A DNA stretch of 64,000 nt from Parelaphostrongylus tenuis (lineage: Eukaryota > Nematoda > Chromadorea > Rhabditida > Metastrongylidae): assembly GCA_019055375.1 (NCBI GenBank), contig JAHQIW010005383.1, positions 1 to 64,000 on the forward strand, written 5' to 3'. The position numbers and the translations under genes are program-made. Of this stretch, positions 7,074 through 63,000 are shown one piece after another. The notes beneath the pieces are model-generated. The model did no database searches and was not told where the DNA came from. It saw only the letters and a list, made by a program, of their open reading frames with translations. Every line of letters begins with the position of its first letter. Position 1 is the stretch's first letter.

Positions 7074-7520
7074 CGACCAGCTAGCAATCGAGTGCGAAAA
7101 CACTCTGTGGTGGTCTTAATAAAGCACTCGAAGGAAAGGTATAATATGATAAAATACCAGCCAGCTAGCAATCGAGTGCGAAAACACTCTGTGTGTGGTC
7201 TTAATAAAGCACTCGAAGGAAAGGTATAATATGATAAAATACCAGCCAGCTAGCAATCGAGTGCGAAAACACTCTATGTTAGGTGAATGACATAGACACC
7301 TGGCATAGAGTGTAAAACGTAGGTCGTCGATAACTATATATGAGCAGTGTGACGCTCCCAAGAGAACTGACTATAAAAAGATCGACAGACGACGGGTTCT
7401 GCCCGGCTGATGAGTCTGTAAGGACGAAACACGTGTCTCGGGCTGTACAAGAGCCTTTACCAGACCACATGACATGTTGGCTCAAATAATAATGAAAGGA
7501 TCTATTCATCTCATAGTTAT
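7074..7520 (+). mobile_element. Family A hammerhead element, partly tandem
   Basis: Begins with two and a half copies of an 82-bp unit (GGTCTTAATAAAGCACTCGA...), then a stem-rich body, the ribozyme at 7401-7443 and a tail CAGACCACATGACATGTTGG followed by CTCAAATAATAATG. The 28.0-28.8-kb element has the same body and tail, so this is a mobile repeat. No target duplication was recognised here. Confidence 0.7.
7401..7443 (+). ncRNA. Hammerhead ribozyme, type I, family A copy 1
   Basis: Helix I pairs GCCCGG (7401-7406) with TCGGGC (7438-7443). The core is CTGATGA at 7407-7413. Helix II is 7414-7417/7422-7425 with a GTAA loop, then GAA. Helix III is only AC/GU around ACGT, and self-cleavage would follow C7437. 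All catalytic-core bases are present. Very short helix III is known from hammerheads of Penelope-like elements and metazoan retrozymes. It lies in a repeat with 82-bp tandem units. Confidence 0.85.
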
Positions 7521-7544
7521 TCCTATAAGCAGAAATGGACATGT

Positions 7545-9689
7545 GTAACGGAATCGGTGTAGGTGTTCGTCAGTACAAAATGCTAGCTGCCTCATTCTCT
7601 CGCCTCAAACGCGCTAAATGCGCCAGTACCTGCGAGATCGTCAGAGCGGTTCGGAAATTATAAGGGGCAAGAACGCTGATTTGATAGTCCAGATATGTAT
7701 CCAATAACATTTAGAGAAGCCTGATAAAGTCGAATACATAACGCATCTCTCAGAAATTGGTCAGAGCTGAAATTATCTTTATTTTGATATTGATAGATAA
7801 ATTAACCCCATTTCGAATCTCTATATCATTATATTATTTTACAGTCTTCTCGGGAAGCAACCCATTTCCAGCCATGTAATCAAACATCCACATGCATTTG
7901 TTCTTATTTGTTATGAGAAAAGGGGAGATCGAGTGCAAGTATGTAACACTCAAACTGTCTCCCTGTCGAGTCTCATTTCAGTTCTTGAAATAGGCGTTCT
8001 TCATCGTTTATAAAGGAAGCTCACTGCTTACGATTAATTCCTCGCCTTTTTCTAAAATAGCCGAAGACTTTAAGTTGGAATTAACTCAATACATATTCCA
8101 AGTACTTTCCAGACATTTAGTTTGAGGGTTTTTACTAAAGCGTCCTTGATATAGCACAATATACAAAATATGCACTTGTTGCGCCACTATGTTATCTTAA
8201 ATATGGGGATTTTATGTCAATACCAATTATGCACCGAAGAGTTCAACTAATTTTCAAAGTAATCAAAAGACGGTTTCCTCTTCATGTGTTGAACTCGATG
8301 TGTATTATGTAGGAAAGGCTCCCTGTGGATTAAAGCTTCACGAACTAATGGTAGCATGCTGATAAATATTTACTAGGTATAACATTGATAAGGTGAAGTA
8401 TAAAAGCAGAATTACTGAGTAGGTCTTACTTCTACAAGCTCTGTGTTTTTCGAGATGGTCGATTCAACTCAACTTCAGAGTAAGATGTCACTTATACTGG
8501 TATTCAGTGGAAACGAATTTGAAGTGTTGCTCACTAGCCACAATAGTCACGCCTATTCAGGTATGGAGGTTCAGAATAGGCGTCCATTCGTTTTATGGCG
8601 TGGTGAGAACGCAGCTACACTATTTTATGTTGATCGAAAGGACGTGTACAAGATTGGAAGAAGTCCCAGTTAGTAACTGTAGTTTTAACACTGTGGACTT
8701 TTCGTTTACTTTACAAAAAAAAATCATCTTCTTCAGAACTCTAGTCAACACCAATCGTATTATTTTATACTATACTAACAAAAATGATTGTACATTGTAT
8801 ACATTCTTTAACTGTCATACTGCCAATATACACTAATCTAATATGAAATAACTTGATTCAAGACAATGTTCATGAAATAGTAGAATACTTATAATGCTTT
8901 CTTCGTCATTAGAGTGCGTCAAACAACACTTACGTTTAAAATGACTTGAGGTAATGTTGGACATCATCAGTGCCATTTGCTAATTACTTGGACACTCGAA
9001 TGGCCCATCTCCACCGATTGTACGGGGTGCAGCATACTATCCATTCCGTGACTTTCTCTCAGCTCCGTGCAATCGTCGTTTATGGCTGTAGGTTACTTTC
9101 AACACTGTGTCGCTTGCAAGACACTATTTCGTTATCGTGAGAATGTTTCCATATGGGAGTATTGCGTTAATCACGAAGACATCCGACCATCGGTTGGCCG
9201 CTAAAGAGGGCTTATGCATTTTTTTTTTCAAGTCCACACTGTTCTCGTAGTCTATGATCTGCTACCAGCTCTTAAATGTGATTGGCCCATCTGTGCCAAG
9301 TTATTGACAAATATTCTCGTGGATATTGAGAATCAATAGGATACGAAGATCTTTTGTGCACAAACAGGTTAAATGTTGTGAGTATCAAATAGCTTTTATA
9401 GAACATCGTACATATATTTTCTAAACAGCTACAAATTTTTTCCGTGGCAAAAATTTAGCTCACCTCTCTGCTTCTAAGCAGATCGATGGAAACACGTAAG
9501 GGTTAAAAGAGTGAGCGCAGAGTTTTGGCTCTATCGAATTGCAAACAAAGAGTGGCGAGGCGCTGTGATAGGGTTTCTTCTAAACTGATCATTTAAAAAA
9601 TGAAAAAATAAGTGATCACGCCGACGTCTTCCACATTTCTCAACTCCACAAATGCAAATTCAACTCCACAAATAACAAGGGTTTCCTTA
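7545..9689. other. No gene recognised
   Basis: AT-rich, without repeats I can pair to elsewhere in the window. Probably intronic or intergenic. Confidence 0.35.
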
Positions 9690-10080
9690 GCTAATTAGCG
9701 TGTGCTTTCCTCATGGTTTTCTTCTAGTGTTGGGTGGCCATATGTAGTTATGCGACCAACTGCCTCAAAAAGAGCGTGTAGATCGTCATCTAAAGAGATG
9801 TGCTTGATGCTGCAGTGTCGAAGCAAGAAGCTGGTTCCATGGCGTGTTGTCGGTGTTATCACTTTATCCGTTTTCAAAAACTTCCCATAGAGTCCAAGAT
9901 TTGATCATTTCTTCCGAGCTGTAGCACCACTCACCGTCGCAGACGGGAGCTCCCATTGTACAGGGTGCTAGGGCTGAGACTCTTCTGGTTTGGCCAATAC
10001 AATCTCCTGAAGTCTCGGAATCAGAATGACTGATGCTTTCCTCAGGTAGCAACTACGACAAGCATATTCGGTGATTTCTA
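9690..10080 (-). other. Coding-like minus-strand segment
   Basis: Two overlapping minus-strand frames look protein-like: LPEESISHSDSETSGDCIGQ through CDGEWCYSSEEMIKSW, and KVITPTTRHGTSFLLRHCSI through HISLDDDLHALFEAVGRI. They are offset by a frame, as in a decayed gene or two exons. Not recognised. Confidence 0.25.
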
Positions 10081-10246
10081 TCACAGAATGATTTCTCACC
10101 TTCCATCTAGTACATTTCAACACTGTGATAATTCTTGATGTTGGTCTATCCTAAGGGATAAAAACGTAGCACTCTTCTCCAACCTGGAATACCGTGTTAA
10201 GAGACTGCATTTTCTGCAGTACAGCGTCCGCCACGCGTTAACGCTA

Positions 10247-10576
10247 TCAGCCACGATAATGCGATAAATTCTTGAGCATATTTACGTAATTATCTGCAAG
10301 ATGAATATGTAACAAAATGGCATTCATTCTTATGGAAAAAGTATTTATTCTGCTTTGCATAGGTTCTGGCGAGAAAGAAACGATAATGAAGTGATGTTTC
10401 AGCAAACGGTATTCCAATTCCAAATTGAAATTTGTGCCTGATTCACGCAATATTGCGTCGTACTGTGCGTAATGGTAGATTGTGTTACGGCATTGCTCCG
10501 CATAGGTGTGGAAGATTTTCAATCTTCCTTTATTTGTAAACATCTTATGAAGCAGAACAAAATCGATTGTGTTCAC
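10247..10576 (-). other. 109-codon minus-strand open frame, unknown
   Basis: An uninterrupted frame with mixed composition (KMFTNKGRLKIFHTYAEQCR, then NTIYHYAQYDAILRESGTNF). It is on the same strand as the 9690-10080 segment. I recognise no domain. It could be a fragment of a decayed gene or chance. Confidence 0.2.
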
Positions 10577-10687
10577 TCTAATATCAACAAATGTAGTTGT
10601 AGATCTTTACGCGTGATTTTCATGAGCAGTTAAATTTGATACTCTTCGAATTAAAATTCTTCATGAAGAATTTTCTGCTAATTTCAG

Positions 10688-10766
10688 TGGAGAAATGTTG
10701 ATCAATGGAGATGTGCTTTTATTTCGCGAAGCAAGAGAACTCGCTCTTAACGATGTGATTAAGTTG
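10688..10766 (+). CDS. Exon of unidentified plus-strand gene (exon i)
   Basis: Bounded by acceptor AATTTCAG and donor GTAAAA. It encodes GEMLINGDVLLFREARELAL and then NDVIKL, with one leading base completing a codon. It ends in phase 0 and joins the 13724-13893 exon without a frame break. The peptide is helical and shows no motif I can name. Confidence 0.65.
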
Positions 10767-12179: not shown

Positions 12180-12420
12180 CTTCAGATGCGAAAGGCGGGT
12201 GTGAAATATAATTTTCTGGGTTCTACAGCGTTGTAAAAGGGTGTCTTAAAGAATTGGCGACATGAGGCTGTAGCCAGAAATTTGAGCTTTCTAATGATTA
12301 CTAACATTCCTATGAAAAATTTCTGTCCGGCGAATGAGATCGATTTATACTTTGTCGCTGTCTCACATATAAGTCTCACAAATACATCCGAGCATACTGA
12401 GTGATACCGCCATTTTCGAT
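12180..12420 (-). repeat. Dispersed repeat R1 copy
   Basis: On the minus strand it reads CGCCGGACAGAAATTTTTCA, TAGGAATGTTAGTAATCATT, then AGAAAGCTCAAATTTCTGGC. The same words recur at 26.6, 40.1, 41.2, 43.7, 44.6 and 46.1 kb in both orientations. No coding potential. Confidence 0.6.
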
Positions 12421-12503
12421 CCAAGGCAGGTTTTCTCAGTCTGGATATAATGCGAACTCAAATCTTGTCTGGGATCAAAAGTTTTACATTTTACTCAGCA
12501 TCT

Positions 12504-12507
<4 letters not shown>

Positions 12508-12548
<41 letters not shown>
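12508..12548. repeat. (TA)n microsatellite
   Basis: About 20 TA units. Confidence 0.95.
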
Positions 12549-12554
<6 letters not shown>

Positions 12555-12740
12555 TATTTAGTTATAGCATAATGATACTTCTAAAAAATTTTATTCATTA
12601 TTATAATATTATTCTGACACTGAATGCCATTTTTGCGTCTTCGCTTTCTCGAGAACCTTGAAATGTTAAATTCACAAAGTTAATAGAAATGCTTATTAAA
12701 CCGTTTTTTTTTGGGTTATTATGCTACTAATACACTTAGT

Positions 12741-13160
12741 AATGTAGAGTGATATGCGAAACTTCCGCTTCAAACGGGACTAGAACCCGCACCTCATTCT
12801 ATTCGGGAGCGTGTGCTCTAATCCGTTACACTACTAACGCCTATTTTGCACACCACTCTTTCTACGCTACAGCGCAACTATTCAAATAAGAATCTTCATT
12901 TGACCGATTTTTCGATGTTATAATGTTACTAATACCCATATATATACCCAGTAATATAGAGTAATATAGATAATATGCCCAGTAATGTAGAGTGATGTAC
13001 GAAGCCTTCGCGAAAAAATAGATGCGCTTTAGCTTAGAAGGAGTGGTGTGTAAAATGGTCGTCAGTGGTGTAACGGATAGAGAACGAGCTTTCGGATAGA
13101 ATGAGATGTGGGTTCGAGTCCCGTCTGAAGCGAACATTCTGCACATTACTCTACATTACT
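12741..13160. repeat. Inverted pair of a second tRNA-like repeat
   Basis: Copy one (12741-12872, minus) and copy two (13036-13160, plus) share GTAACGGAT, a B-box-like GGTTCGAGTCCC and flanks GTAGAGTGAT.../AGGAGTGGTGTG. The tRNA-like cores are about 12766-12842 and 13058-13132. As RNA the whole would form a long hairpin. The elements differ from the main SINE. Confidence 0.7.
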
Positions 13161-13893: not shown

Positions 13894-13979
13894 GTATGTT
13901 AGTAAGAGAAACAAAATTAATTCTCATTGCTGATGGCGTATTTAAGTACTGTCAGAACGACAGTAGGCATTCTTGTGCT

Positions 13980-15560: not shown

Positions 15561-15569
15561 TATTTGCAG

Positions 15570-18880: not shown

Positions 18881-19260
18881 GCAATAAATAATAAAACAAA
18901 CTAATAAATCAAATAAAGGCATCACAGTTTACAACGGCCACTAACCGAAAATCCTAATCCTTCTCGACAATGCTCAATACATGCTTATCAACAAAGCGGA
19001 GTGCTGTACAAAACATGCCCATTGTTGTTTACCTAACTACTTCGTCCGTGTCGTGCAGCTTTTTGAGGACTTTTATGAAAGCTCCAACATAATTTCACAT
19101 ATAAGCAATGTGATCGATATTGTGATATTCTTGCATTGGTTTGTATTAGATCAAATCGCAAAGTTTCGAATCAAGAACGTTTTCACACACTGTTCCCAAT
19201 AGTTTGGGGAACTGGTTGGCAGCATATTTTGATTCTACCTACTATCAGTTACCTGGGTTT

Positions 19261-19900
19261 ATCAATATAATGGTAATGAGTATATCCCGCATATTGTATA
19301 TCGGATTGAAGTAATTGAAATAGACCTAGCTCAACATATTATCATAATATTCAGCTTTATCTTTTTTTGAGCTAGGTCTATTTCAATTACTTTTTTGAGC
19401 TAGGCCTATTTCAATTACTTCATTCCGATATACAATATGCGGGATATACTCATTACCATTATATTGATAAAGCTGAATATTATGATAATATGTTTAGAGA
19501 CTGTGAGGTCTGGTGCGATAACTATGCAGAACCATACAGAGCTGTTCGGCCTTTTCATGCTTAGAGGTGCTACGATGCTTGTCGGTCATGCAAATCTTTT
19601 GCGCTGGGAGATATCCTTATATATAAAGCCTAGATGCCGAATAACAATTTATCGCCATTCGGGCTATAAAATCTCCCGACATTATAGTGACAACGGTCGA
19701 ACTCATGGTTAGCAAAGTGAACCATACCTCTTCATTCGGCTCTTCGACAGAACTGAAAGACACCGAACGGCTGATGAGCAAAAGGCGAAACATGACTGTC
19801 TAGTACTGTGTAAGAGCCATACCAGACATCATGAATGCTCAGAACATGTTATCATTATATCGGATTATTATTGTTTTTTTTTTGAGCTAGGTCTATTAAA
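19261..19900 (+). mobile_element. Palindrome-headed hammerhead element (family A relative)
   Basis: A 75-bp inverted repeat (19261-19335 with 19396-19470) opens the element. The string TGAGCTAGGTCTATT occurs at about 19369, at 19397 (one change) and again near 19881, flanking a roughly 480-bp unit that carries the ribozyme at 19760-19811. The tail ACCAGACATCATGA matches the family A tail. No open frame of note. Confidence 0.65.
19760..19811 (+). ncRNA. Hammerhead ribozyme, diverged family A relative
   Basis: Core CTGATGA at 19771-19777, short helix II GC/GC, GAA, helix III ACA/TGU with loop TGAC, predicted cleavage after C19800. Helix I (19760-19770 with 19801-19811) has eight pairs and three mismatches, so activity is doubtful. 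Confidence 0.55.
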
Positions 19901-20639: not shown

Positions 20640-20991
20640 TATCAAAAGATCGACTGTTTTTGAAACCCCCAAAAAAACATTCAATATAATTCCAAAAAAA
20701 GAATGATTTAAGCTCAAAAAAGGGGGTTGGTAAGCCCAGGGTCATACACCGGTGTTTCGGAGGTTCGTCCTCCTCATCAGTGACCCCCGCCCCACATTCA
20801 GCCCTGCATTGAAGCAAGGAGGGTGGCGTATGTGGTGATGGCACAGTGCACTATGACACTGTACCATCACCACCTCTCAGTCGATAGATTTTTGCTGTTA
20901 GATCAAAACTATATCAAAAGATCGACTGTTTTTGAAACCCCCAAAAAAACATTCAATATAATTCCAAAAAAAGAATGATTTAAGCTCAAAA
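20640..20991 (-). mobile_element. Retrozyme-like unit: 272-bp period with 80-bp direct repeats
   Basis: The 80-bp sequence beginning TATCAAAAGATCGACTG is present at 20640-20719 and 20912-20991, giving a period of 272 bp. The single-copy part between the repeats carries a complete hammerhead on the minus strand. The layout matches 1.3 copies of a 272-nt circular or tandem RNA reinserted into DNA. No coding capacity. Confidence 0.7.
20739..20786 (-). ncRNA. Hammerhead ribozyme, type I, family B (complete)
   Basis: Read on the minus strand: helix I GGGTCA/TGACCC (20781-20786 with 20739-20744) is perfect. Core CTGATGA, helix II GGAGG/CCTCC (20769-20773 with 20759-20763) closes an ACGAA loop, then GAA, helix III ACA/TGT around CCGG, and GUA as the cleavage triplet (A is the complement of 20745). 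Every required base is present and all three helices pair. Confidence 0.9.
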
Positions 20992-21310
20992 TAGTATACG
21001 ATGATCTTTCAAACTGTTACTAAACATGTTTATGTTATTCTATATATATTCATTCATATTTCAGTCATAATCATCAACAACAACTCATCTTCATACATGT
21101 TGTTATACAGGAATGTTATAATGCTACTCATGAATTTTGTGATCTCAAACGTTTCAGACATAAATAAACTATTTGGGAAGTATTGTATTTTTAATGGGTC
21201 AAGTTACTGTATGATTGCTGTTATATGTTATATGTATATATGACATACGTATCTGTGGCACATGTTTGTGCATGCATGCAAGTATATATAAAGATATATA
21301 TATAAATGTT

Positions 21311-21626
21311 GAGCGCATGTGGCGCAGTGGTCAGAGGTGTTCGGCTCGCACACGAGGTCACTGGTTCGATCTCGCGCTCATTTCTCACCAGGCCATCTAT
21401 CCCTCCGGGGTCGGTAAATTGATACCAGACAGGTCTCAGACTTGTCTGGGAGGATAAGCAGCACTGACTCGGTTCAGCGGGAGGCCACCGCGAGTCATTG
21501 TAAAGGCCAGATATGCATTCAATCACCTCAAAGGAAGTTAAAAATTGAAGTCGAATGCATGGCGGATCCCTCAGGGAATGATCAACGCCAAGAGCTCTAT
21601 CCTTTATCCTTCATCCTTTATATGTA
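21311..21626 (+). repeat. tRNA-derived SINE, copy 1 (most complete)
   Basis: The head 21311-21380 folds like a tRNA: GAGCGC pairs with GCGCTC, TGGCGCAGTGGTC is an A box and GGTTCGATCTC a B box. The body follows (CAGACTTGTCTGGGAGGATA...), ending near TTTATCCTTCATCCTTTATA. Other copies are at 33.6, 37.5 and 47.7 kb in reverse orientation. Confidence 0.85.
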
Positions 21627-21629
21627 AAT

Positions 21630-25194: not shown

Positions 25195-25241
25195 GTGGCA
25201 CTGATGAAGCGGGCGATACTGCCGAAACATGCGTATGCTAC
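25195..25241 (+). ncRNA. Hammerhead ribozyme of the CUGAWGA-GGC/GCC type
   Basis: Helix I GTGGCA (25195-25200) pairs with TGCTAC (25236-25241). Core CTGATGA at 25201-25207, helix II GGC/GCC with loop GATACT plus four extra bases on the 5' side, GAAAC, a two-pair helix III around ATGC, and cleavage triplet GUA ending at 25235. The extra bases before helix II are odd for a hammerhead but recur in the related motifs in this window. Confidence 0.6.
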
Positions 25242-26197
25242 TGACATACTAACTTGGAGAAAGCTCTAGACATTCTCACAAACTTCTCCATTATGTCTAT
25301 GTGCGCCAAGCTTCCTAGTGAAGCGTTTTGTTTGATTTTAAGTTAATCAAATAAGTGTCCCGTAACTGGGATTCAGTCAGACATTAGATATTAGATCGTT
25401 CCATAAGTTTCAGCACTAGATCAGTAAAACCAAATTTATCAACTAAAATGATTAAAATTGCAGATTTTAATACCGTTCAGTTGCGCATTTTGCAAGCATT
25501 TCAATATTCATGTTGCCAGTATTTGATCTAAGAAAGAGATGTCGAGGGAACACATTCGCTTGCTAATTATGCACAAATGGCACGTAGAGAAAAAGGGTTG
25601 CCAGGAAGCAAACCACGATTAATGGAGCTTCTTATGGACATCCCGAGCGCAATTGATCCTCCAGACTGTTCTTTCCAGCTATGAACTTTGCAAAGCACTT
25701 CCTTGTCGTGCCCTCTGTTACCGCATCATCGCCCCAAGCTCCAATAATCTTGCCGCCTCTTCTTGCTTTTTCCGCTAAGCGTTATTCAGTATAGCATTAA
25801 AACCCTTGAGAGGCATCGTTCACATGGCACCTGCCGAACGAGTGAAGATTCTCGCCAAAAACACTGCCGAAATTCTCCTGGGTCTTTTGAATATGAGAAT
25901 TGTGTAGCCCTAGCTACTAAAGTGCTCAATGATACCTCCCTTCGCAGTGTACATATAGTGATGAGTCTTACAGAAAATAGCAACTTCTTTGTTCACGTTA
26001 TTCTGACCTCGTTCTATTGTGTTGACGAGTCAAACTTTTTAAGATATCAATTTGGAAGATGCGTACTTTTAATTTATTCTACTCATAAAACACTTTTATC
26101 ACGATCCGCCGTCATTGCTTGAGCAGAGAAAGTAGTGCGCATCTTCCAAACATACGCCTCCTTCCTTGAGACAATGCAGTGCTTAATGTGGGGCGTG

Positions 26198-26242
26198 GGC
26201 CACTGACGAAGAGAGCGAGGCCACCAAAACACGTGTATGGCT
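26198..26242 (+). ncRNA. Decayed hammerhead motif (dead core)
   Basis: Helix I GGCCA/TGGCT (26198-26202 with 26238-26242), core CTGACGA at 26203-26209, stem III ACAC/GTGT region and a GUA triplet ending at 26237 are kept. The GAAA core has become AAAA (G12 lost) and helix II no longer pairs. It is related to the 25.2-kb motif, since flanking words match in order. Confidence 0.5.
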
Positions 26243-26929: not shown

Positions 26930-27990
26930 CGAGCATGAAAAATAGTAGAGAATCATTCCTTTAGTACTTCACTTGGCCACCTCACGCACATGCACTTGAT
27001 TAGGCCAAAAACTCCTTTGCTCAAGCATGCCAAATCATTTTGTTTCACGTGCTGCGTTGCAGAGAAACGGTCTTTACAGGCCATAAGCACAGAGTTGGAA
27101 TCGGAAACGATTATATATACTATGGTGTATGCGGAACACCTTGTGAAGATTGCTTAATAGTTAGACCCATAGCAACATCCGCGTATAATTTATCTGTGGT
27201 ACTGTTGCACTGATAAGCGAAAAGCGGGAGTTACTAACTGTTTCACGGAATTAGGAAGTTACATGCTGAAATGCAGTCAGGTACAAGCTCTAAAATATGA
27301 CAAATGTTACTAGCGACATATTCATACGTGAAGGGCCGCGAATGGTGCCTTTCACGAGTCTGTGAAGTTCTCTGCTAATCGGTTGCTCTATTCGATTTAG
27401 TAGCTATCAGTGAGAATGTGATCTTTGTGATATCGTTATAACTGTGAGTCCGCGTTTCACTCTTGTCGTATGTCACTCAGCACCCTTGTATATATAACTG
27501 CGACATCATAACATTACGACGAGAAATGAAATAGGAGATTCTAATAGAATACATTCATCCAAATGTTGTGTCATATCCACCTTGTTGTGCGCTGGTATAA
27601 AGAAAAAATTGAGGTAGTGAGAATAATTTTAGCGACTAAGCGTTCGAGTGGAAAGTGAAAGTGGAAAACGACATGGAAGCAGCAGGGCATAAAAGGCGAG
27701 GAGAAGAGTGCATAAATCGATAAGTGAGGGAGTTGTTTTATGATTAATGGAAAAACAGATTTGGCACAGGTCATTGTTAAGGAAGCGATAAGTAATAGGC
27801 GACAACGAAATTCGACAGAAATATTTCCAAGAGAAAAGTATACTTTTCAAAGTGTTTAAAGTGATCGTTTAAACCATAAAAAGATGAGGATAATCTTTAT
27901 TGCATGCTATTGACTGTTAATAACATCAGAGAAGGGCACACCGAAAGGTTTTGAGAATTCAGGAAAAACGCTGTCTAATGCTAAATATAA
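26930..27990. other. No gene recognised
   Basis: AT-rich, no element identified before the palindrome at 28031. Confidence 0.35.
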
Positions 27991-28090
27991 AGAGATGAGC
28001 AGAAAAGTGTTGTTGAAGCTTCATAACTCCAGATTCTTTTATTATTATTTGAGCCAACATGTCATGTGGTCTGGTAAAGGCTCTTGTACA

Positions 28091-28133
28091 GCCCGAGACA
28101 CGTGTTTCGTCCTTACAGACTCATCAGCCGGGC
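28091..28133 (-). ncRNA. Hammerhead ribozyme, type I, family A copy 2
   Basis: Reverse complement of the family A motif, identical through the core. Helix I is 28128-28133 with 28091-28096, the core complement TCATCAG at 28121-28127, and the cleavage base is the complement of 28097. It lies in the left arm of the palindrome. Confidence 0.85.
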
Positions 28134-28650
28134 AGAACCCGTCGTCTGTCGATCTTTTCATAGTCAGTTCTTTCGGGAGCGTCACACTCCTTATATATAG
28201 TTATCGACGACCTACGCTTTACACTCCATGTCAGGTGAAACATTCACCTAACACTGAGTGTTTTCGCACTCGATTGCTAGCTGGCTGGTATTTTTATCAT
28301 ATTATACCTTTCCTTCGAGTGCTTTATCAAGACCACGCGCAAATTTCAGTAGATTCTTTTATTATTATTTGAGCCAACAAGAGCCTTAACCAGACCACAT
28401 GACATGTTGGCTCAAATAATAATAAAGGAATCTACTGAAATTTGAGCGTGGTCTTAATAAAGCACTCGAAGGAAAGGTATAATATGATAAAAATACCAGC
28501 CAGCTAGCAATCGAGTGCGAAAACACTCAGTGTTAGGTGAATGTTTCACCTGACATGGAGTGTAAAGCGTAGGTCGTCGATAACTATATATAAGGAGTGT
28601 GACGCTCCCGAAAGAACTGACTATGAAAAGATCGACAGACGACGGGTTCT

Positions 28651-28693
28651 GCCCGGCTGATGAGTCTGTAAGGACGAAACACGTGTCTCGGGC
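28651..28693 (+). ncRNA. Hammerhead ribozyme, type I, family A copy 3
   Basis: Identical core to the copy at 7401: helix I 28651-28656 with 28688-28693, core 28657-28663, helix II with a GTAA loop, cleavage after C28687. It lies in the right arm of the palindrome. Confidence 0.86.
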
Positions 28694-28985
28694 TGTACAA
28701 GAGCCTTTACCAGACCACATGACATGTTGGCTCAAATAATAATAAAGGAATCTACTGAAATTTGAGCGTGGTCTTAATAAAGCACACGAAGGAAAGCTTC
28801 ATAACTCCGTATCCATTTTGAACCTTATTTCTTATTTGTATCCAGGCTATGCAAAATTATGTAGCTTGCCTATTATGCTTTATGTTTGTGATATGTCTAA
28901 TCCTTATTTAAAGCTTCACGTGGTTGGTATCTTTTTCCCGATCGATTGTCCTTCTTTTCGGTCGATGATTTTTCTTGGTTACTTG

Positions 28986-29023
28986 TGAGTGACGTTTCGG
29001 CAAATACGCCTTCCTCAGAGCCG
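28986..29023 (-). ncRNA. Hammerhead-like motif, left palindrome arm
   Basis: Minus-strand partner of the 29073 motif: core CTGAGGA (complement 29012-29018), GGC/GCC helix II, GAAACGTC (complement 28991-28998). Helix I is weaker here, with a mismatch at the second pair. Confidence 0.45.
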
Positions 29024-29072
29024 TGCAATCTAGTCTAGGGACTCTAGTCTAGGGCCCCTGGACTGGATTGCA

Positions 29073-29110
29073 TGGCTCTGAAGAAGGCGCATTTGCCGAA
29101 ACGTCAGCCA
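29073..29110 (+). ncRNA. Hammerhead-like motif, minimal helix III
   Basis: Helix I TGGCT/AGCCA (29073-29077 with 29106-29110), core CTGAAGA (position 7 is free in hammerheads), one extra A, helix II GGC/GCC around GCATTT, then GAAACGTC with cleavage after C29105. Helix III (AC/GU) has no loop, so activity would need a dimer, as argued for similar motifs in Penelope-like elements. Confidence 0.6.
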
Positions 29111-29280
29111 CAAGCAACCAACATCGACCGAGAAGAAGAATAATCGATCGGGAAAAAAATCCCAACCTCGTGAAGTTTTGAATAAGGATAGGTTCTTGAG
29201 CTTTTTTTCTGATTTTCCCAGTTTCATATTATTAACATGCAGAGACTTTAAGAAAGTCGGTCTTTCGAGATATGTCTAAT

Positions 29281-33634: not shown

Positions 33635-33928
33635 TATATATAGGATGAAAGGATAAAACTCCCAGCGTTGATCAATCACTGAGGGATGCGCCATACAATC
33701 GAGTTCAATTTCCACTTCGTTTGAGGTTCTTGAATGCTTATCTGGCCTTAACAGTGACTCTTGGAGGCCTCCTGTTGCATCGAGTAGTGCTTCTTCTGCT
33801 TTCTGCTTCCGACTCTGGAGTGATAAATGGCTTGGTGAGCCGTGAGCGCGAAATCGAACCATCGAATGGAACTCATGTGCAACGCAGAGCATCTCTAGCC
33901 ACTGCGCCACATGCGCTCTTTTTGCAAC
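33635..33928 (-). repeat. tRNA-derived SINE, copy 2
   Basis: Minus-strand copy of the 21.3-kb SINE, with the tRNA-like head at the high-coordinate end (AGCGCATGTGGCGCAGTGGC on the minus strand) and the ATCCTTTCATCC tail at the low end. It adjoins the RTE relic. Confidence 0.82.
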
Positions 33929-37514: not shown

Positions 37515-37800
37515 TAGACTAAAGGATAAAAGGATAAAGATCTTGGCGTTGAACAAATTTCAGGGAGACGCCAAGCACTCGTCTTAAATTTTCAACTTCA
37601 TTTGAGGTGATTGAATGATTATCCGGCCTTTACAATAACTCACGGTAGCCTCCCGCTGAATCGAGTCAGTGCTGCTTATCCTCTTAGACAAGTCTGAGAC
37701 CAGTCTGGTATCGATTTAGCGATCCCGGAGGGATGGATGGCTTGGTGAGCCATGAGCGCTAGATCGAACCATTGACCTCGTGTGCGACGCAGACGTGTCT
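37515..37800 (-). repeat. tRNA-derived SINE, copy 3
   Basis: Minus-strand copy: GATCCCGGAGGGATGGATGG, the GAGCCATGAGCGC region and a TTATCCTTTTATCC tail. The tRNA-like head is partly eroded at the high-coordinate end. Confidence 0.8.
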
Positions 37801-46300: not shown

Positions 46301-49300
46301 TCCATACAGCAAACGTACATTGGTCCTTAGCCCGTTCCATAGCAAGACAAGCGGTCCTCCACTCTTGAAGTTCAGGTGAAGGGATCAAGCCAGCAACATG
46401 GCCGGAAGCCAAAGATGATGTTCCAAGAGAAGGGAAACTAGACACAAATCGTGCTTGCCACCAGTTATGGTCGTCTTTTGAAATTACCTATAAGGGATTA
46501 TAAGCTGGTTACCTTTTCGGATAGTCTTGGTTTTTCTTCACTACCTTACCTGAAGTACATCACCCGTTTTAAAAGGTACGCCTGCTTGTGGACACGGAAT
46601 AAGGTCGTCTTGCGAGGGGTCGTAATCAAATTGCGCACGAACAAAAATTTCACAAGCTGGAGGAGCAGATCGATACGATGGTACTATTTTGAAGGTCACC
46701 TGAATGTCTCCTAGTGAACAACGGAGCTCTTTTGATACATAGAGCCATCCAGACAGGAAAACAAATCTATGCACGCTTACCTGCCCACGAGCTTCTCTCA
46801 GCATTTGTTGGAGCGATTCAACAGGTCGATTGTTTACGGATACACCATCAATCTCTCGAATTTCGTCGCCAACATGCAAAGTTGCTAAAGGAAAAGCTTT
46901 TTTTCCTTAATAAAAGCAAATCAAAGGTTTTTCGATAATTATTTTAGCTCTCCACATCTCATTTTTCAAATCTTACATAGAAATTTCCCAATATCATCCA
47001 TTATCGCTATCATCCAAAATTTGAACTTAACAGCTGATACAAACTCCTGAGCATAGATTCGTCAAAAGCATTGTACTTATATCAAATTTGAAAAAAAAAC
47101 TGATCAGTTGACTTTAATACGATGTCCATCAATATTCACAAATGAGTTAGTGACTTTATATACGGTTGAAGGATAGCCAAACATAAATAAACGCAGAACC
47201 CAAACAAACTAGAAAATTTTTATGTCACCTTGTCTATGAACCATTCCACCGTGCATTATGCGAGCCACAAAACATCTTCCGTCTTCAGTGACCTGAAATT
47301 CGATGCCCTACAATCTCACCATTCGACCTCTTCTTTTTATTGACGTTCTTATGGAACAAACCTTCAACGTAATTCCCATAGGCTCCTCAGTGTCCTTCTG
47401 GAATTGGACCACTCGAATCCTTGAAATGGAGCCCATCAACAGCTCCTCGTCATCATCACCTATTTTGATGTAATTGGTTAAATCATATTAATTTGGCACA
47501 ATCGACGCACCGCACCAAACCTATTTTTCGGTCATTACAATTTAATAGTAATCTGACAATAAACAGCAAATTTTCTCTAACTAGAAGAAATTAGAGGTTG
47601 GTAACATGATATAGAAAATACTTCGATCCATCGCTTTATAGCTGTCGATAATATGCACCAATATACAACGCTATTACTTCGCGGTATCATGTTCATCATA
47701 AAAGGATAAGAAGTAAAGCTGTCAACGTTCAGTGGTACCTGAAAGAGGTGCCATGCATTCTTCTTCAACTTGGCTTCTTCCGAGGTAATTGAATGCATAC
47801 CTGGCCTCTACAATGACACGCGATAGCCTTTTAATGTATCGAGTTAGTGCTGCTTATCCTCTCAGGCAAATTTGGTACCAATTTACCGACTCCGAAGGGA
47901 GGATGGATGGCCTGGCGAGCCATGAGCGCGAGATCGAACCATCGACCTTGTGGGGGACGCAAAGCACTTCTAACTATTACGTCAGCTGCGATTTTTGATT
48001 AACCATACAAATACAAAACAACTGAAACCTGAAATTGTTCCGCAACTTATGCTGTGGATCGCGCTCTATTCTTGTATATCGCACGCTGTGTAGAATAACT
48101 AAGATTTACACCACTAGAATTGAGATGATAGTCGATCAACATTCAAATTTCTGGTCAGTGAACTCGTTTGGAAGCGATTTACGAATATTTTAAGGTGTAA
48201 ATAGAACTTTTCTCCAACAAGGTTCAATAAATCATCTTTGTCGTACAAGCTAACCATTTACTACAAAATTTTTAGCAAAAACGTTTTGTACTATCATATT
48301 AATCATTGGAAAAAATACAATTTGAAATCAATATCTACAGCCCCGCCGGCGTACCCATCGAAGTCAGTGCGCATAATCACAAAACCTGGGATGATTATAG
48401 GTAAACAATAAAAAGAAACCTGTAACTGATGTAGGCAAAAATTCATCGACAGATGTACCAGCTCGTTTGGCTCCTAGAGGAAGTACACCACCATTCAAAT
48501 ACGAATTTGAAAGACCGGCCTGAAAAAGCACACTTAGATGATAGAGGTCCGCTATAAGTCTATCGATGCATTATTTATTGTCTTCCTATCAAACGAATTC
48601 GGCAATTTGGTAACCACAAAATCATAAAAAGCTTGATTACCGCGGCGAGTGGGTCGACTCAATCGAATCAAGCACCATATGTGTTTAACATAGAGGTCCA
48701 TAACATCTGTTATACTCGGCCTACACACATACACATATATATATATATATATATCTATTTATTTATTTATATTTATATATATTCAAATATACATATTTAT
48801 ATACATATATATGTACATGTACATACATACGCGCATATACATGCATATGCATACATAGGTATATATATATATATATGTATTGTATAAATACATATATGCA
48901 TATATACATATATACACATATACATGCTTCACTTTCCAAGCGTGCATCTCATATAGTTCAAATCAGTTGCAGTTTTCCCTGAACTCATGAGGATGAACTT
49001 GATTGTTAAAGTGCACCTGTGATGAAGAGGGAGCATTATGAGAATTCTCGTCTTTGTCGTCTCCTTCATAAACCTCTGAAATAACGACGTCATGAGCTTG
49101 AAGACATGCCTGAAATTATTCGCATCCGATTTCATCATTATATTTATTCCTATTTTGATTATCTATCCAATCCATGTGGAATAGTTACGACGACAAATCT
49201 GACTTTTCCCGTAGATCCATTAGTAGGAAACTCGAAGTTCATGTGTTCTTTCATAATTAAAATCTTGTTGAGATTCAGAACACACTTTTTCACTTATCAT

Positions 49301-58300: not shown

Positions 58301-60028
58301 CAATTCACATACAGCCAGAAATAATTTCGCTTTCCTTTACACAAGTATATCTGTTCTAATAACATAAGAATATACTGAACTACATGAATCAATGAAAAGA
58401 GAGAATACCTGCCATCATACTCACCTCTTTAGCTGTAATTCTCCTTTCATCATCGACTGTCAGCATACGAACTACAAGATCGCGTGCCTGCTCGGAAATT
58501 CGATTCAAAGATGGGCTCGTCAGCTTAATTTCAATCACAACAGTCATACTAGAAGATGTAGGAGAGTTTAGTACAAGAATGCTTCCACCAAGTGCGCTAG
58601 AGACTGAGATACGTCTTGTTACGTTAACTATACTTTTCAACAATATTAGAATGAGATATCTTCTAACGCCCTGATAAAGTGTTCTCAGCAGGCTAGAACT
58701 GCGTTACAATTATTCTCTTTTGAAATATGTGAGGATTCCAAAGTTTGACAGTGAAACATAGTAGTGCATCAATTCAGGCAAATTTGTGAATTCTGACCAA
58801 TATATTATAGTGATAATTCATCGAAAAAGGCGTCAGAGTATTACTTCACTTTTTTTCTTTCTGATGAACAATGCTTAACGCATTAGATGTAAAGATCAAG
58901 ATGACAGAGCACGTCAAGCTTTGTTCTAGAGGTGATTTTGAAAAACTCCAGGCAGAAATAAGTTTCTTATTGTTTGAGTCTGGATCTGTACATTAAGTAT
59001 CGCATGGTAACTGAGGAGTTTAAGAAGGGACTGTTGCAGTGTTATCAAGGATAAAAATTAAACCCAAAAAGCGGTTATTTTTCATGTCATAAACTCATTA
59101 AGAAGGTATCTGAATACCATGTAACGTCCAAACTTGATCTCATCGTACACTGAGCTTGGTGAACTTCCAAAAGGCAACCTGCCAGAGAGCAACAAATGTA
59201 GCACTACTCCTGTACTCCAAATATCTGCTGCTGTCCCTAAACGTTACACATAGTGTTCATGAGAAAATGCTCAGCAAGAATATTGCTTAGATCTGCAGAA
59301 AATACAATGAGTGATTTGGACAATTCTAAAAGTCTTCGTTACTACTTCAAAATTAGTATTGGGCGTTTTGAGAGCGTAAAGAACTCACTCAAGAAAATAT
59401 ACATACAAGTAGTTTTTACTATTCCACCCTCTCTATACCAAATATCACTATTCCATTTTTTCTCGTCGCCCAGAAATTTCAGTTCTTTGTCACAAATACC
59501 AGCTCTATTTTTGAACCTTTCATAACAGTAACGACCAATGAAGACAAATTGAAACGATATATATATATTACTTACGTACCATATTCTTTACCAAAAATAA
59601 CTTCTGGAGCCATGAACTGTGCAACACCGACCCGTCCTGAATGATTATAATTATGCATGTCTGTCTGTTAACGATCAAATCAAATTTACACTATGGCTAA
59701 CGTGAGCAAAAAATTGTACGAAAGTGATTTAAAAATCAACTGGTTCAATTTTCTATTCGTCAGACAAGTCTCGTACTCTTTCAAGACGAAACTTTAGTAA
59801 ATAGCAGAAAAACTGCACAAAATGCGTGGAGAAGTTATATGTTAATAAATGGAGAATGAATAAACTATCAACTTCGCAAAATTTTAAAGAAGTTACTTAG
59901 TGTCATCGAAGCATTCTGCTATCACCTTTAGGAACACAGACGTACCTCCATCAAATTTCGTTTTTGATTCTGCTATTTTCACGGCAACACCAAATCCGCA
60001 TAGCTTCAAAGGCGCTGAGTTGTCTCTA
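43129..60028 (-). CDS. lin-2: CASK/LIN-2 MAGUK scaffold, 23 exons, 5' end outside window
   Basis: Gene span on the minus strand; the individual exons are listed separately. CASK/LIN-2 is a multidomain scaffold that, with LIN-7 and LIN-10, localises receptors and presynaptic proteins at cell junctions (family knowledge). Domains seen in order are: C-terminal half of the CaM-kinase-like domain (residue triplet GFG replaces DFG, then MAPEV), CaM-binding helix ([11 protein letters not shown]), two L27 domains, PDZ ([16 protein letters not shown]), SH3 ([18 protein letters not shown]), hook ([10 protein letters not shown]), and guanylate kinase ([16 protein letters not shown]) ending PVSWVY-stop. 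The 23 exon lengths sum to 2365 nt, which is one leading base plus exactly 788 codons including the stop. The first roughly 150 residues of the kinase domain are missing. Introns run from about 55 bp to about 2 kb, and some hold SINE and RTE relics. Confidence 0.95.
43364..43435 (-). CDS. lin-2: lin-2/CASK exon: guanylate kinase core strand
   Basis: Encodes [20 protein letters not shown] and then GLQD, 24 codons in phase 0, matching the FVVFIAAP strand of CASK. Acceptor GGTTGAG, donor GTAAGT. Confidence 0.97.
43516..43604 (-). CDS. lin-2: lin-2/CASK exon: guanylate kinase
   Basis: Encodes [20 protein letters not shown] and then [13 protein letters not shown] and the ILDVEPQ strand are typical of the fold. 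Acceptor TTGCAG, donor GTACAA. The first two bases complete a serine codon from the previous exon. Confidence 0.97.
43690..43930 (+). repeat. Dispersed repeat R1 copy, just 5' of a lin-2 exon
   Basis: CATAGAAGTACTAGAAATCA, AATTTCTGGCTATAGCC and TTTCTCGGCGGACAGAGC match R1. It sits in the intron between the 43516 and 44763 exons. Confidence 0.58.
44620..44700 (-). repeat. Dispersed repeat R1 fragment
   Basis: Minus-strand view: CCTCATTCGTCAAGCAGGAA, CTTTTCATAGAAGTTTAGTA, ATCATTCGAAAGCTT. It is an inverted neighbour of the 43.7-kb copy. Confidence 0.5.
44763..44885 (-). CDS. lin-2: lin-2/CASK exon: guanylate kinase middle
   Basis: Encodes [20 protein letters not shown], then [33 protein letters not shown] and the EYLEYG region are the GMP-binding subdomain of MAGUK guanylate kinases. 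Acceptor TTACAG, donor GTATGT. Confidence 0.97.
44956..45082 (-). CDS. lin-2: lin-2/CASK exon: guanylate kinase P-loop region
   Basis: Encodes [20 protein letters not shown], then [20 protein letters not shown] and [13 protein letters not shown] is the CASK form of the guanylate kinase nucleotide loop. Family knowledge says this domain has lost catalysis and acts in protein binding. Acceptor TTCCAG, donor GTGTGT. Confidence 0.98.
45152..45255 (-). CDS. lin-2: lin-2/CASK exon: hook region
   Basis: Encodes [20 protein letters not shown] and then [14 protein letters not shown]. The basic stretch after MWF is the hook that in CASK binds protein 4.1. It is followed by the start of the guanylate kinase domain. 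Acceptor TTTTTTAG, donor GTGTGC; the next intron is only 69 bp. Confidence 0.96.
46105..46185 (-). repeat. Dispersed repeat R1 fragment
   Basis: The minus strand carries the GAACCTTTCATGGGAATGCT and AATAATCAATCCAAAGC words of R1. It lies in a lin-2 intron. Confidence 0.45.
46319..46487 (-). CDS. lin-2: lin-2/CASK exon: SH3 second half
   Basis: Encodes [20 protein letters not shown], then [20 protein letters not shown] and [16 protein letters not shown]. It carries the conserved SH3 WW pair and [11 protein letters not shown]. Acceptor TTATAG, donor GTACGT. Confidence 0.97.
46550..46699 (-). CDS. lin-2: lin-2/CASK exon: PDZ end and SH3 start
   Basis: Encodes [20 protein letters not shown] and then [20 protein letters not shown] and [20 protein letters not shown] is the first SH3 strand (ALYDY equivalent), and DDLIPC is typical of MAGUK SH3 domains. 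It is separated from the PDZ exon by an 81-bp intron. Acceptor ATTCAG, donor GTAAGG. Confidence 0.97.
46781..46884 (-). CDS. lin-2: lin-2/CASK exon: PDZ C-terminal part
   Basis: Encodes [20 protein letters not shown] and then [21 protein letters not shown] and the following helix are the most conserved part of PDZ domains. Acceptor CTTTAG, donor GTAAGC. Confidence 0.96.
47229..47292 (-). CDS. lin-2: lin-2/CASK exon: PDZ core
   Basis: Encodes [20 protein letters not shown] and then Q, the PDZ strand and the HGG turn, and is close to worm LIN-2 in wording. Acceptor TTTCAG, donor GTGACA. Confidence 0.94.
47362..47459 (-). CDS. lin-2: lin-2/CASK exon: PDZ start
   Basis: Encodes [20 protein letters not shown] and then [17 protein letters not shown]...PMGITLK contains the carboxylate-binding loop of the PDZ domain. 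Acceptor AAATAG, donor GTTTGT. The upstream intron holds a SINE copy. Confidence 0.94.
47695..47992 (-). repeat. tRNA-derived SINE, copy 4, in a lin-2 intron
   Basis: Minus-strand copy, same strand as lin-2, within the intron between the PDZ-start exon and the linker exon. The head has an eroded A box. The body and the GAGCGCGAGATCGAACCATC (+ strand view) region are clear. Confidence 0.8.
48420..48519 (-). CDS. lin-2: lin-2/CASK exon: L27-PDZ linker
   Basis: Encodes [20 protein letters not shown] and then [13 protein letters not shown], the variable linker ahead of the PDZ domain. SYLNG matches SPYLNGD in vertebrate CASK. Acceptor TTTTTCAG, donor GTTTCT. The last base joins GT of the next exon as glycine. 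Confidence 0.85.
48720..48925. repeat. Low-complexity TA/CATA tract in a lin-2 intron
   Basis: Alternating ATATAT, ACATAC and TTATTT words over about 200 bp. Confidence 0.9.
49017..49109 (-). CDS. lin-2: lin-2/CASK exon: end of second L27 domain
   Basis: Encodes [20 protein letters not shown] and then [17 protein letters not shown]...EVY is the conserved end of the CASK L27C domain, followed by an acidic and serine-rich linker. Acceptor TTTCAG, donor GTGCAC. Confidence 0.92.
49859..49942 (-). CDS. lin-2: lin-2/CASK exon: second L27 domain
   Basis: Encodes [20 protein letters not shown] and then LLHSNDMK, the start of the second L27 domain, which binds LIN-7 family proteins in CASK. Acceptor ATTTAG, donor GTGGGT, 28 codons in phase 0. 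Confidence 0.88.
50955..51030 (+). repeat. Possible tRNA-derived fragment
   Basis: AGTGGTAAATGATACAGC and GGTTCGATTCC sit at tRNA-like spacing with GCCGGA-like ends. No clean cloverleaf. Confidence 0.25.
51947..52021 (-). CDS. lin-2: lin-2/CASK exon: L27 domain helix
   Basis: Encodes [20 protein letters not shown] and then ALNRD. LYDRI continues the first L27 helix bundle (LLDLYDKI in vertebrate CASK). Acceptor TTTTCAG, donor GTGAGT, 25 codons in phase 0. Confidence 0.9.
52560..53020. other. GC-rich patch in a lin-2 intron
   Basis: CCTCCGGCGACGGGTAAAC, CATGCCGCGCGCACACTGCC and CGGGCGCCAACATGGGCGCC stand out from the AT-rich intron. Open frames on both strands follow from base composition. 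It may be a fragment of a GC-rich transposon, or an internal promoter. Confidence 0.3.
53677..53790 (-). CDS. lin-2: lin-2/CASK exon: first L27 domain
   Basis: Encodes [20 protein letters not shown] and then [18 protein letters not shown], a helical segment matching the N-terminal L27 domain used for heterodimerisation with other L27 proteins. Acceptor TTTTCAG, donor GTCTGT, phase 0 at both ends. Confidence 0.9.
54301..54377 (-). CDS. lin-2: lin-2/CASK exon: linker before L27
   Basis: Encodes [20 protein letters not shown] and then AGANK, the linker between the kinase and L27 domains. Acceptor TTTTTTAG, donor GTTAGA. The reading frame is fixed by the flanking exons. It is weakly conserved outside nematodes, so the call rests on phase and position. 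Confidence 0.8.
55300..55410. repeat. Low-complexity TA/CATA tract in a lin-2 intron
   Basis: ATATATATGCAC and TATATATATA words. Confidence 0.9.
55855..55930 (-). CDS. lin-2: lin-2/CASK exon after CaM-binding helix, possible GC donor
   Basis: Encodes [20 protein letters not shown] and then TENSSG, continuing the RKLK helix of the previous exon. The acceptor is TTTCAG. No GT donor gives the needed phase. CTTCAG|GCTAGA (a GC donor) gives 76 nt, exactly 25 codons plus one base, which joins GT of the next exon as glycine. An assembly error at the donor base is the alternative. Confidence 0.8.
56574..56650 (-). repeat. tRNA-like sequence in a lin-2 intron
   Basis: On the minus strand, GCCTCGGTGGTGTAGTAGTA resembles a tRNA 5' half with an A box, and CACAGGTTCAACTCCCG a T arm. 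The acceptor stem pairs for only about five bases and the T stem has mismatches. A tRNA pseudogene or SINE head is more likely than a working tRNA. Confidence 0.4.
57000..57602 (-). pseudogene. RTE-type retrotransposon C-terminal fragment
   Basis: The minus strand keeps an open frame [20 protein letters not shown], then [20 protein letters not shown], then [20 protein letters not shown]. This is the tail behind the RT domain of RTE elements. It is 5' truncated at about 57602 and ends in a GC-rich 3' region. It sits inside a lin-2 intron on the same strand and is much less decayed than the 32.4-kb relic. Confidence 0.88.
57864..57971 (-). CDS. lin-2: lin-2/CASK exon: CaM-binding autoregulatory region
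   Basis: Encodes [20 protein letters not shown] and then [16 protein letters not shown]. This is the end of the kinase fold and the amphipathic basic helix that binds Ca2+/calmodulin in CASK. Acceptor TTTTTTCAG, donor GTGTAA. The upstream intron holds little. The downstream intron (towards 55930) contains an RTE relic and a tRNA-like repeat. Confidence 0.92.
58425..58523 (-). CDS. lin-2: lin-2/CASK exon: kinase subdomain XI
   Basis: Encodes [20 protein letters not shown] and then [13 protein letters not shown], which holds the conserved RIT of subdomain XI. The donor is GTGAGT. The acceptor chosen is ATTAAG because it joins in phase and in alignment with GRYM of the previous exon. An alternative TTCTAG acceptor, giving 58548 as the exon edge, would add eight unexpected residues. 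Confidence 0.88.
59119..59237 (-). CDS. lin-2: lin-2/CASK exon: kinase subdomains IX-X
   Basis: Encodes [20 protein letters not shown] and then [19 protein letters not shown]. The DIW...GV motif is kinase subdomain IX. Acceptor GTTTAG, donor GTATTC. The exon starts by completing a glycine codon from the previous exon. Confidence 0.92.
59580..59636 (-). CDS. lin-2: lin-2/CASK exon: activation segment / APE
   Basis: Encodes [18 protein letters not shown], covering the end of the activation segment and the APE motif (kinase subdomain VIII). Acceptor ATTCAG, donor GTACGT. The split codons on both sides join in frame with the neighbouring exons. Confidence 0.93.
59946..60028 (-). CDS. lin-2: lin-2/CASK exon: kinase subdomain VII (GFG)
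   Basis: Encodes [20 protein letters not shown] and then SKTKFDGG. The DFG magnesium-binding motif is GFG, the signature substitution of CASK kinases. The acceptor is TTTCAG at the high-coordinate side and the donor GGTACGT at the low side. The first base completes a codon from an exon not seen in the window. Confidence 0.93.
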
Positions 60029-63000
60029 CTGAAACGAAACATACACAGAGTTAGAGGAAAAGCAAAATTTCGAAACGTCAAATATCATATAAAAGGCCAC
60101 TCCGAACTCCGCTTCTATAGTATTGTTTCAAATGAAAGAACGCCACAAATCTGGGAGTGTTTAAGGCTAGATTAATGTTGATGCAATGAATTCATCGCAA
60201 CGATAACGGAAGTAATGTTAATTTTACCTATTTGGAAACCTATTTGGAAACTTCTCAGACTCTCTATGAAGATTGTCTGTCACAAGGTATCACTGTTTTT
60301 AACAGCTTGATCATCGCAATTCGTGGATGGATGGTAGCATTACCTACTAAAATCGTATCACGGAAATTATTTAAAATTTCCCTTGTCCAGATCCTGGAGC
60401 ATCTTTTAGAAAATTCAGAAAATAACCCCGTGCTTTGCATTCATATTCTATACTTCTCATTATTTCGCGGTTCAGTTCTTCAATTCTTTTTAGTCGGTTT
60501 TATGTAAATTTATGTGCATGCTATTAGAAAAAAAGATGGAAGATAGAAACGAGCGCTAAATGCGACAAAATAACTTTGGGATCAACTTTACGGAAAAGTC
60601 TTGTATCTGATTTGGATGGAACATTTCTTCACTTCGCACCACCCTCTTTGTTGTTCAACGAATAATTCGGAGACTTAGAAACAACTAAACTGCTCTGAAG
60701 AAGGCAGCACAACCGAAACGTCAGCATTGGATCAGTGAATTAAATGGCATTCCGTATTAAATCGCATTCAATAAATCCTGCTAATAACAACTTCGCTTTT
60801 GTTTATCGTGAGGAACGCTGAGTTCTTCTTTTAGTTGTGATTATCGTTCCATAATGCTTCATAGGTATAACTGGAAACTTTAGGACTTCTATTGACTATA
60901 CCCTTCAGCTCTTTGGGTACAACAGGTCTACGGCGCTAGTGCCGCCTGGTCACGCACAACGAGAAGTCAGTCTATAATGGCGAGTCTTTTGCGATGCCAG
61001 CCATCGGAAAAGTCTGCTAGTTCGATCTCCTACCACGACACGCGCAGCAGATCATCTGATGTCCGATGTGGATTAGTATTGAGGATTCATCCATAACGTA
61101 AGTGATGTAGAAAAACGTTTAATTGCCTAAGATTTCACTACTTTCTGATTGGAAACGTAGGTCGTTTCTTTCGACAATGTTGTAAGAGTAGAATTCAGAA
61201 ATATACTTTCTATAGTGTATGAGTTTTCAAAAAAAATTTGAAATAGCGGATGCAGTCAGTTTTGCGGAACCTGTGCATAAATTCTGCTGTTACGCTGTGG
61301 AGCTACATTGCGTATTAAGAACTATGAGCGTAATTTTTTGTTATAATAAATACGCTTGTAGAAGTTTTTTAATACTAATGAACATTAAAAGACTGCACTG
61401 AGAAGTCGCTGAAGGAAACTGAACTAGCAACCTTTTTTTTGACGGCAGGCGCATCACAACCACTCAGCAATATGGATGCTTGCTGCCGCGTGCGGCGGCG
61501 GGGCAGGGCTAGCGCCGTGGGCTTGCCATGCTCAAAGGCTTAATAAGTCTTCCTTTGATTCTTGACCGCAGGATTTTAGGTTTTGGAGAAATTGTAAAAT
61601 GGAAGTTGGCTGATACTTTATGTTATAAGCGTGCTCACTGATTCGATTTCTCGTCTTGAGAGAACTAAGGGTCTTTTCGGGGTGGTTAGCAAGTCGCTAC
61701 CACACTTGCCTAGGCGAATAGCACTTCCACTGCGTTTCATCATTTTGTAAAATTTAGAACTCTTGTATGATAGAGAAGATTCGTTTGCCATATAATCGCA
61801 ACGCTATCATTATATAGTGATAGGTATCAAAAGCACACGATGAAATTTGTTTTCTCATTCACTGTGACAACCTTGATTTAATGTAATAACTGGAATGAAA
61901 TAACAACCAACTGGGAGTCAAAATTAATTGCACTATGCTCAAAACATGATAAGCTACAGTGAGTCTTCAATATTCGCCGATAATTCTATAATCAAAGTCA
62001 TGAATGAGATGAGAACTTGACAAACATATAGAACAAGACTTTACCATAGTAACAAATTAGTAGCTTTTTAAAGTGTTCATTTTCATTTTGCGCTTCATGC
62101 GGACTGAAATACTCAGTGAACTGAGAAATAACTCAAAAATCTGAAGTCGTAGAAGCGCTGCAACCATAGGCATGAACCGTACGTTGGGAAAGACCAGTGT
62201 GCTCTATTAGACGAAATATCAACTATTCAAACCGCTCTGTAGTTCCAAAATGCGACATGCAACAACAAATTACGTTCTGCATGGTAAGTAAAATCATTAC
62301 TGCTACAGTATAAAAGGTTACACCTTTTTCTTGGAACGTTCACGGGGTGAGTAACGTCTGTAAAGATAATGTGCATTTTGGATTTCCCGTCTCACATGCA
62401 CAAATTTCGACGCACAGGCTAATTAAGTGGCCTTAAATTTATCCTCAGTAAGTTTGCCTTTCTGCCATAAAAAATCCCGTTCCATAACAAGATAAAAACA
62501 ATCGAATTCAACGAAATAAAAGTTAAAAGATCAATTCGACTTGTCTTTACTGATACTAAATAAATAGTTATTTTGGTAGACTAAAAAACCGTGTTTAAGG
62601 GGGACACTCCAATAAAGAGCTAAGTTCACTGTGAGTTATGCTCTCGCGAATGCGTTGAGATTTTGATTTATAACCGGAAAAAAAAGCTTTCACAGCAAAC
62701 TGAGTTATGCTGTTTGAGGTTAAAAGGGTAATTTGGCTCGCGTGTGGAAGCCACAGAGATAATCAAGCATTTAACTGTCAGGGAACTAATGATAGTTATG
62801 GGAACGGGAGAGATAGATAATAATATCAAAATATGGCATTTCCTGAACTGGACGTGAATTATAGAGAGCAACGTTGCAGCTTTATGGCTCGATGAATATT
62901 TAGAAGGTCAACGAAAACGTTATGTAACCACTTTCAAGAGAGGTTACCATCGTTCTTCTCCCTAGATGGAAAATTATGAGAATAAGAGTCGATAACAACA

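Follow-up and report, generated by a model that had tools for sequence, protein, structure and literature searches.

The DNA analyzed here, a 64,000-nt stretch of Parelaphostrongylus tenuis contig JAHQIW010005383.1 (hereafter the window), carries small elements with hammerhead ribozymes, which a preliminary description had put at eight or more sites and ascribed to a resident population of small non-autonomous retroelements related to Penelope-like elements (PLEs) or retrozymes. When the window was searched with the Rfam covariance model RF00163, three type I hammerheads of one shared sequence (referred to as family A) reached the gathering score (34.9 vs. 34 bits), at 7401..7443 (+), 28091..28133 (-), and 28651..28693 (+), and no further match was found up to E = 5. 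A strict descriptor requiring the hammerhead core and three helices recovered these three sites and a fourth, also type I, at 20738..20787 (-), with a helix I of 7 bp, a helix II of 5 bp, and a palindromic helix III (family B); this makes four sites against a mean of 0.005 per dinucleotide shuffle (n = 200). Rfam as the sole detector was insufficient, as within the window it picks up family A only and lists neither family B nor the minimal copies described below.

Minimal hammerheads of the PLE type occur in each arm of an 83% palindrome at 28900..29189, at 29073-29110 (+) and, in a weak form, at 28986-29023 (-), and a further minimal core with a weak helix II lies at 60691..60727 (+); the cores read CTGARGAAGGC..CGAAACGTC at 29078 (+), 29018 (-), and 60695 (+). 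A decayed element copy with a hammerhead core is found at 19750..19866 (+), 75-76% alike to a palindromic element in locus L013, and next to it, beside TTTTTTGAGCTAGGCCTATTTCAATTAC repeats, is a palindrome of its own that spans about 214 bp (19258-19471; 83%). A decayed family B copy with a dead hammerhead lies at 26150..26239 (+), and the class of a hammerhead-like core at 25195..25245 (+) is doubtful. The early count of at least eight sites was right in kind, although about half of them are weak, dead, or doubtful.

A third family, referred to as Z, was found outside the window. Fold-energy z scores of single hammerheads are nothing unusual, whether in A (-0.58), B (-1.87), and Z (-1.21) or at 29073 (-0.76), 60690 (+0.23), and 25195 (+0.35); the case for hammerheads lies in pattern, copies, and compensation. 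In the family Z alignment (17 rows picked from 30 loci, 16 of them distinct), 97.1% of cells pair, and two-sided changes affect two of the 15 pairs, a helix I pair in 1 row and a helix III pair in 6 rows.

All three families consist of non-coding, retrozyme-like units with one type I hammerhead each, measuring 320 bp in A, 272 bp in B, and 285 bp in Z (GC 0.434, 0.449, and 0.442, respectively), and none of the units encodes a reverse transcriptase (RT) and an endonuclease (EN). The sole stop-to-stop frame of at least 120 aa over the A and B copies of the window (27914-28372, 152 codons) spans an arm and its flank and is taken as a chance occurrence. A first look at the genome gave 3470 candidates for A and 1232 for B, and the 40 candidates scored for each family contained 102 and 201 matches, respectively. 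Genome-wide, 20 of the 31 RF00163 matches listed reach the gathering score; where mapped they belong to Z, and family B is not among them. Families A and B also occur as tandem arrays, some of them free of inversion (L016, C3225). A family B array in C1459 of G000 has two divergent arms of at least 12 units each, with a spacing of 269-271 bp in both, as from one template. At two loci (L055 and L057, in C371 and C4633), the flank letters of a family A insertion (CATTCAATATAATTCT..) resemble family B, as if one retrozyme had perhaps inserted into another.

The resident population envisaged in the preliminary description is thus borne out, with Z as an additional family, and the elements with hammerheads are genuine and belong to a known class, the animal retrozymes. 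As in the metazoan non-long-terminal-repeat (non-LTR) retrozymes treated in the part of PMC7229834 compared here, the hammerhead is of type I, its helix III is short and palindromic, it lies in non-coding units (170-400 nt there) of less than 50% GC, target duplications exceed 4 bp, and PLEs occur alongside. Unlike in that account, two-armed insertions that diverge and end in two zones are frequent here; the words "nematode" and "inverted" do not occur in the main text of that paper.

One such two-armed insertion, of family A, lies in the window between copies of the target-site duplication AAGCTTCATAACTCC (28016..28030 on the left and 28794..28808 on the right). The outer end of its left arm (28031..28379, -) is at unit position 66, in what we call the near zone (site 1), and that of its right arm (28377..28796, +; 1.3 units of 320 bp) at unit position 109, in the far zone (site 2). 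The 3' end of a one-armed family A copy at 7077..7504 (+) is likewise in the near zone, at unit position 67, and that of a family B copy at 20640..20994 (-; 1.3 units of 272 bp) in the far zone, at unit position 105; no flank match of at least 8 nt was found for this family B copy. The same arrangement recurs in the genome. All 49 two-armed insertions are divergent and none is convergent, and their outer ends fall in two zones, with one end per zone in 47 of the 49. Matches of at least 8 nt between an insertion's own flanks were found in 43 of 72 and enclose the arm pair as a whole. No poly(A) was seen at the insertion ends, which sit at two places inside the unit. These ends do not include those from a looser alignment scoring, which over-extended the ends and was dropped.

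Of 119 arms, leaving out the four alternating arms of the nested-looking locus L059, 110 run through the hammerhead cut and 64 are longer than one unit, while just one stops no more than 3 nt from it. A linear cleaved monomer is therefore ruled out as the template, and a circle or an uncleaved multimer fits. An origin of the palindromes in self-complementarity of the unit is also ruled out, as the tandem array of L016 (1470-2424) has no inverted repeat. In 48 simple two-armed cases, the inner junctions show overlaps of 0-7 nt or fillers of 1-29 nt, with one outlier of -75. Inner arm ends lie near the hammerhead in 14 of 44 cases in A (expected 6.3), 1 of 29 in B (expected 4.9), and 3 of 46 in Z (expected 7.4); clustering there was dropped as a general rule, being enriched in A but not in B or Z.

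Potential sources of an enzyme are plentiful in this genome. Among 1723 candidates for a GIY-YIG endonuclease, 150 were scored, all those listed are above the cut-off, and the open frames at the scored matches reach 902 codons. Neighboring pairs within 6 kb are divergent in 20 of 22 cases, tandem in two, and convergent in none. Our comparison with PLEs draws on one element, L091, which has a single 893-codon open frame with RT and GIY-YIG domains and an inverted, partial second copy, with a minimal hammerhead in each arm and a tail on one outer end. Counted from the hammerhead cut, its outer ends lie at about +71 and +103 nt, between target duplications judged by eye to be 12 bp (ATACATGAATCT). 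These arms, ends, and duplication indicate the same insertion rule as in A, B, and Z. No solved structure matches its protein at E ≤ 1e-3; its best named homologs are from Necator, Ancylostoma, and Haemonchus, which is the sole support for the earlier remark that the genome is nematode-like.

A BLAST comparison of the window with L091 revealed no likeness to A or B other than a hairpin, CA(G/C)TCG(A/G)...(T/C)CGA(C/G)TG (CASTCGR...YCGASTG), which is common to A, B, Z, and L091 and is the only sequence kinship between the three families and this PLE. Its arms are CACTCGA at 96 and TCGAGTG at 144 in A, CAGTCGA at 89 and TCGACTG at 133 in B, CAGTCGA at 76 and TCGACTG at 118 in Z, and CAGTCGG at 88 and, 45 nt further, CCGACTG in L091, where the second arm lies within the start of the frame. 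Stem position 3 is either C-G or G-C and position 7 either A-U or G-C, and the family A hairpin folds well compared with shuffles (z -2.65). The far-zone ends sit in the loop of this hairpin in A, B, Z, and L091, except for two Z ends, 79 and 80. In A and Z, most near-zone ends are contained in the loop of an upstream hairpin, GGCTCAAA..TTTGAGC, and in B a different stem encloses them. The window holds the shared hairpin at five places, against 0.01 in shuffles, every one within a copy of A or B: at 28267-28321 and 28463-28517 in the left and right arms of the two-armed insertion, at 20878-20928 in the family B copy, and at 7125-7178 and 7210-7263 in the one-armed family A copy. The latter two both derive from an 85-bp tandem duplication (7077-7279) that doubles the start-hairpin stretch (unit 81-166).

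The position of the ends recalls the purified PLE protein PAc, which, according to the portion of PMC11167929 considered here, cuts and extends both strands and begins synthesis at two internal RNA positions, with the known 30-40-bp PLE tail corresponding to the interval between them. The commonest start is a stem loop 111-118 nt into the open reading frame and the hammerhead cut is at +26, so that the starts would fall about 85-92 nt and, by inference, about 50-60 nt 3' of the cut. In vitro, the start site was alike on both strands and the hammerhead was not required (PMC11167929). The one-end-per-zone pattern of 47 of 49 two-armed insertions here agrees with what two internal starts 3' of the hammerhead and extension of both target strands would leave. 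In the Penelope of Adineta vaga, as far as described in the corresponding part of PMC3846280, direct and inverted pseudo-LTRs are accompanied by duplications of 8-10 bp and an optional 31-bp tail on one inverted pseudo-LTR. The retrozymes here resemble the EN-bearing PLEs of these two accounts in their head-to-head direct and inverted arms, short target duplications, optional tail at one outer end, and hammerhead 5' of the internal starts, which in the retrozymes are putative. They differ in being too short for an RT or EN and in their canonical, not minimal, hammerheads.

The insertion scars and the shared hairpin suggest that the retrozymes are copied by the machinery of a larger retroelement resident in the genome. 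We consider it likely that all three families are non-LTR retrozymes of the animal type and that an EN-bearing PLE from this genome inserts them in trans. We infer this link from the sequence of one PLE locus, whose insertion geometry, minimal hammerhead, and hairpin, together with the many GIY-YIG matches, agree with the relation to PLEs or retrozymes proposed at the outset. Transcripts of the 270-320-bp units would be cut by the type I hammerhead and would close into circles or persist as multimers. The PLE protein may then bind an RNA module just 3' of the cut, of which the hairpin would be part, with site 2 a start in the hairpin loop and site 1 a second start some 35-55 nt upstream of site 2. 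Cuts in both target strands, offset by about 8-15 nt, would expose two 3' ends, of which one would prime complementary DNA (cDNA) from site 1 and the other would do so from site 2. Synthesis of either cDNA would continue around the circle or along the multimer, in many cases past one unit length, and joining of the free cDNA ends with little or no homology would leave a divergent two-armed insertion between target duplications. The retrozymes would thus mimic the start hairpin of the PLE.

We give about even credence to a more specific version, in which the PLE enzyme acts as an asymmetric pair with its partners set on sites 1 and 2, each cutting and priming one strand, and is parasitized by the retrozymes via the copied hairpin. 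If each partner primes its own cDNA, nearly every two-armed insertion would have one end of each kind. The pair may sit on one hammerhead-processed circle or on two, as variants often differ between the arms of an insertion, possibly because two RNA molecules were copied. Tests for one template for both arms gave mixed results. At diagnostic sites, consecutive passes of an arm match each other above expectation in A and Z and little above it in B. Between the arms of a single insertion, agreement slightly exceeds expectation in A and Z, with no excess in B, and in mean identity such paired arms are, in A and B, no closer than arms taken from different insertions; these results would allow two RNA molecules per insertion. 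The mean-identity result, the incompleteness of the RF00163 genome list, and hidden second arms lower our confidence in insertion by a PLE very slightly.

Among the alternatives, a realistic though tentative one retains the same machinery with an uncleaved linear multimer as the template and the hammerhead dispensable for insertion; the cut-crossing arms would be expected from such a multimer also, and hammerhead mutants of PAc still insert. Insertion by the L1/RTE-type machinery of long interspersed nuclear elements (LINEs) appears improbable. In LINE-1 twin priming, two cDNAs are primed from both target ends and the RNA has a single, polyadenylated 3' end. The inverted arms, target duplications, and two-ended priming are alike, but the ends here lie in two zones inside the unit where no poly(A) was seen, the resident PLE shares the geometry and the hairpin, and an internal RNA start at a site unmatched to the cleaved DNA has been reported as unique to PLEs. 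Self-priming on antisense RNA, to which the described part of PMC3846280 ascribes the A. vaga pattern on the grounds of head-to-head repeats with junction palindromes, has equally little probability here, as the two outer ends lie in different zones in 47 of 49 cases and the inner junctions vary from overlap to filler. Ordinary tandem retrozymes that became inverted secondarily, through nested insertion or an inversion of the chromosome, which the nested look of L059 and the inversion-free arrays L016 and C3225 might favor, are highly improbable given the uniform divergence, the one end per zone, and flank matches that enclose the whole arm pair.

The preferred reading, insertion of the retrozymes by a PLE in trans, bears on which enzyme moves animal retrozymes, for which PLEs are named only as likely candidates in the parts of PMC7229834 and PMC7761336 compared, and on how PLEs produce the inverted, tailed insertions described in portions of PMC3846280 and PMC11167929. 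This single genome holds numerous insertions that are small, young, and defined in sequence, and they provide a readable footprint of the insertion reaction; the hairpin is a specific candidate cis signal. The asymmetric pair, if true, would explain PLE tails and inverted repeats and would name the motor of animal retrozymes. In the open-licence literature, we found no account of elements like these in strongylid nematodes and no paper joining PLE start sites, inverted Penelope insertions, and retrozyme movement. The scars bear the PLE signature more sharply than in the parts of the PLE descriptions compared, which is new, and the start hairpin that the three retrozyme families share with a resident PLE is also new; both the two-end rule and this hairpin go beyond the preliminary description.

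The window contains several other features. The frame at 46541-46906 (-) is a PDZ-domain exon and was ruled out as part of the elements; the residues after it look like the SH3 domain of what we take to be a MAGUK scaffold protein. ARAGORN predicts a tRNA-Phe(GAA) at 12766-12840 (-), which scores 27 in Rfam, just below the cut-off of 29, and is perhaps a decayed copy. A dispersed repeat occurs at 21311-21600, 33653-33920, 37534-37793, and 47738-47990, and also in L018 and L003, with copies 70-84% alike.
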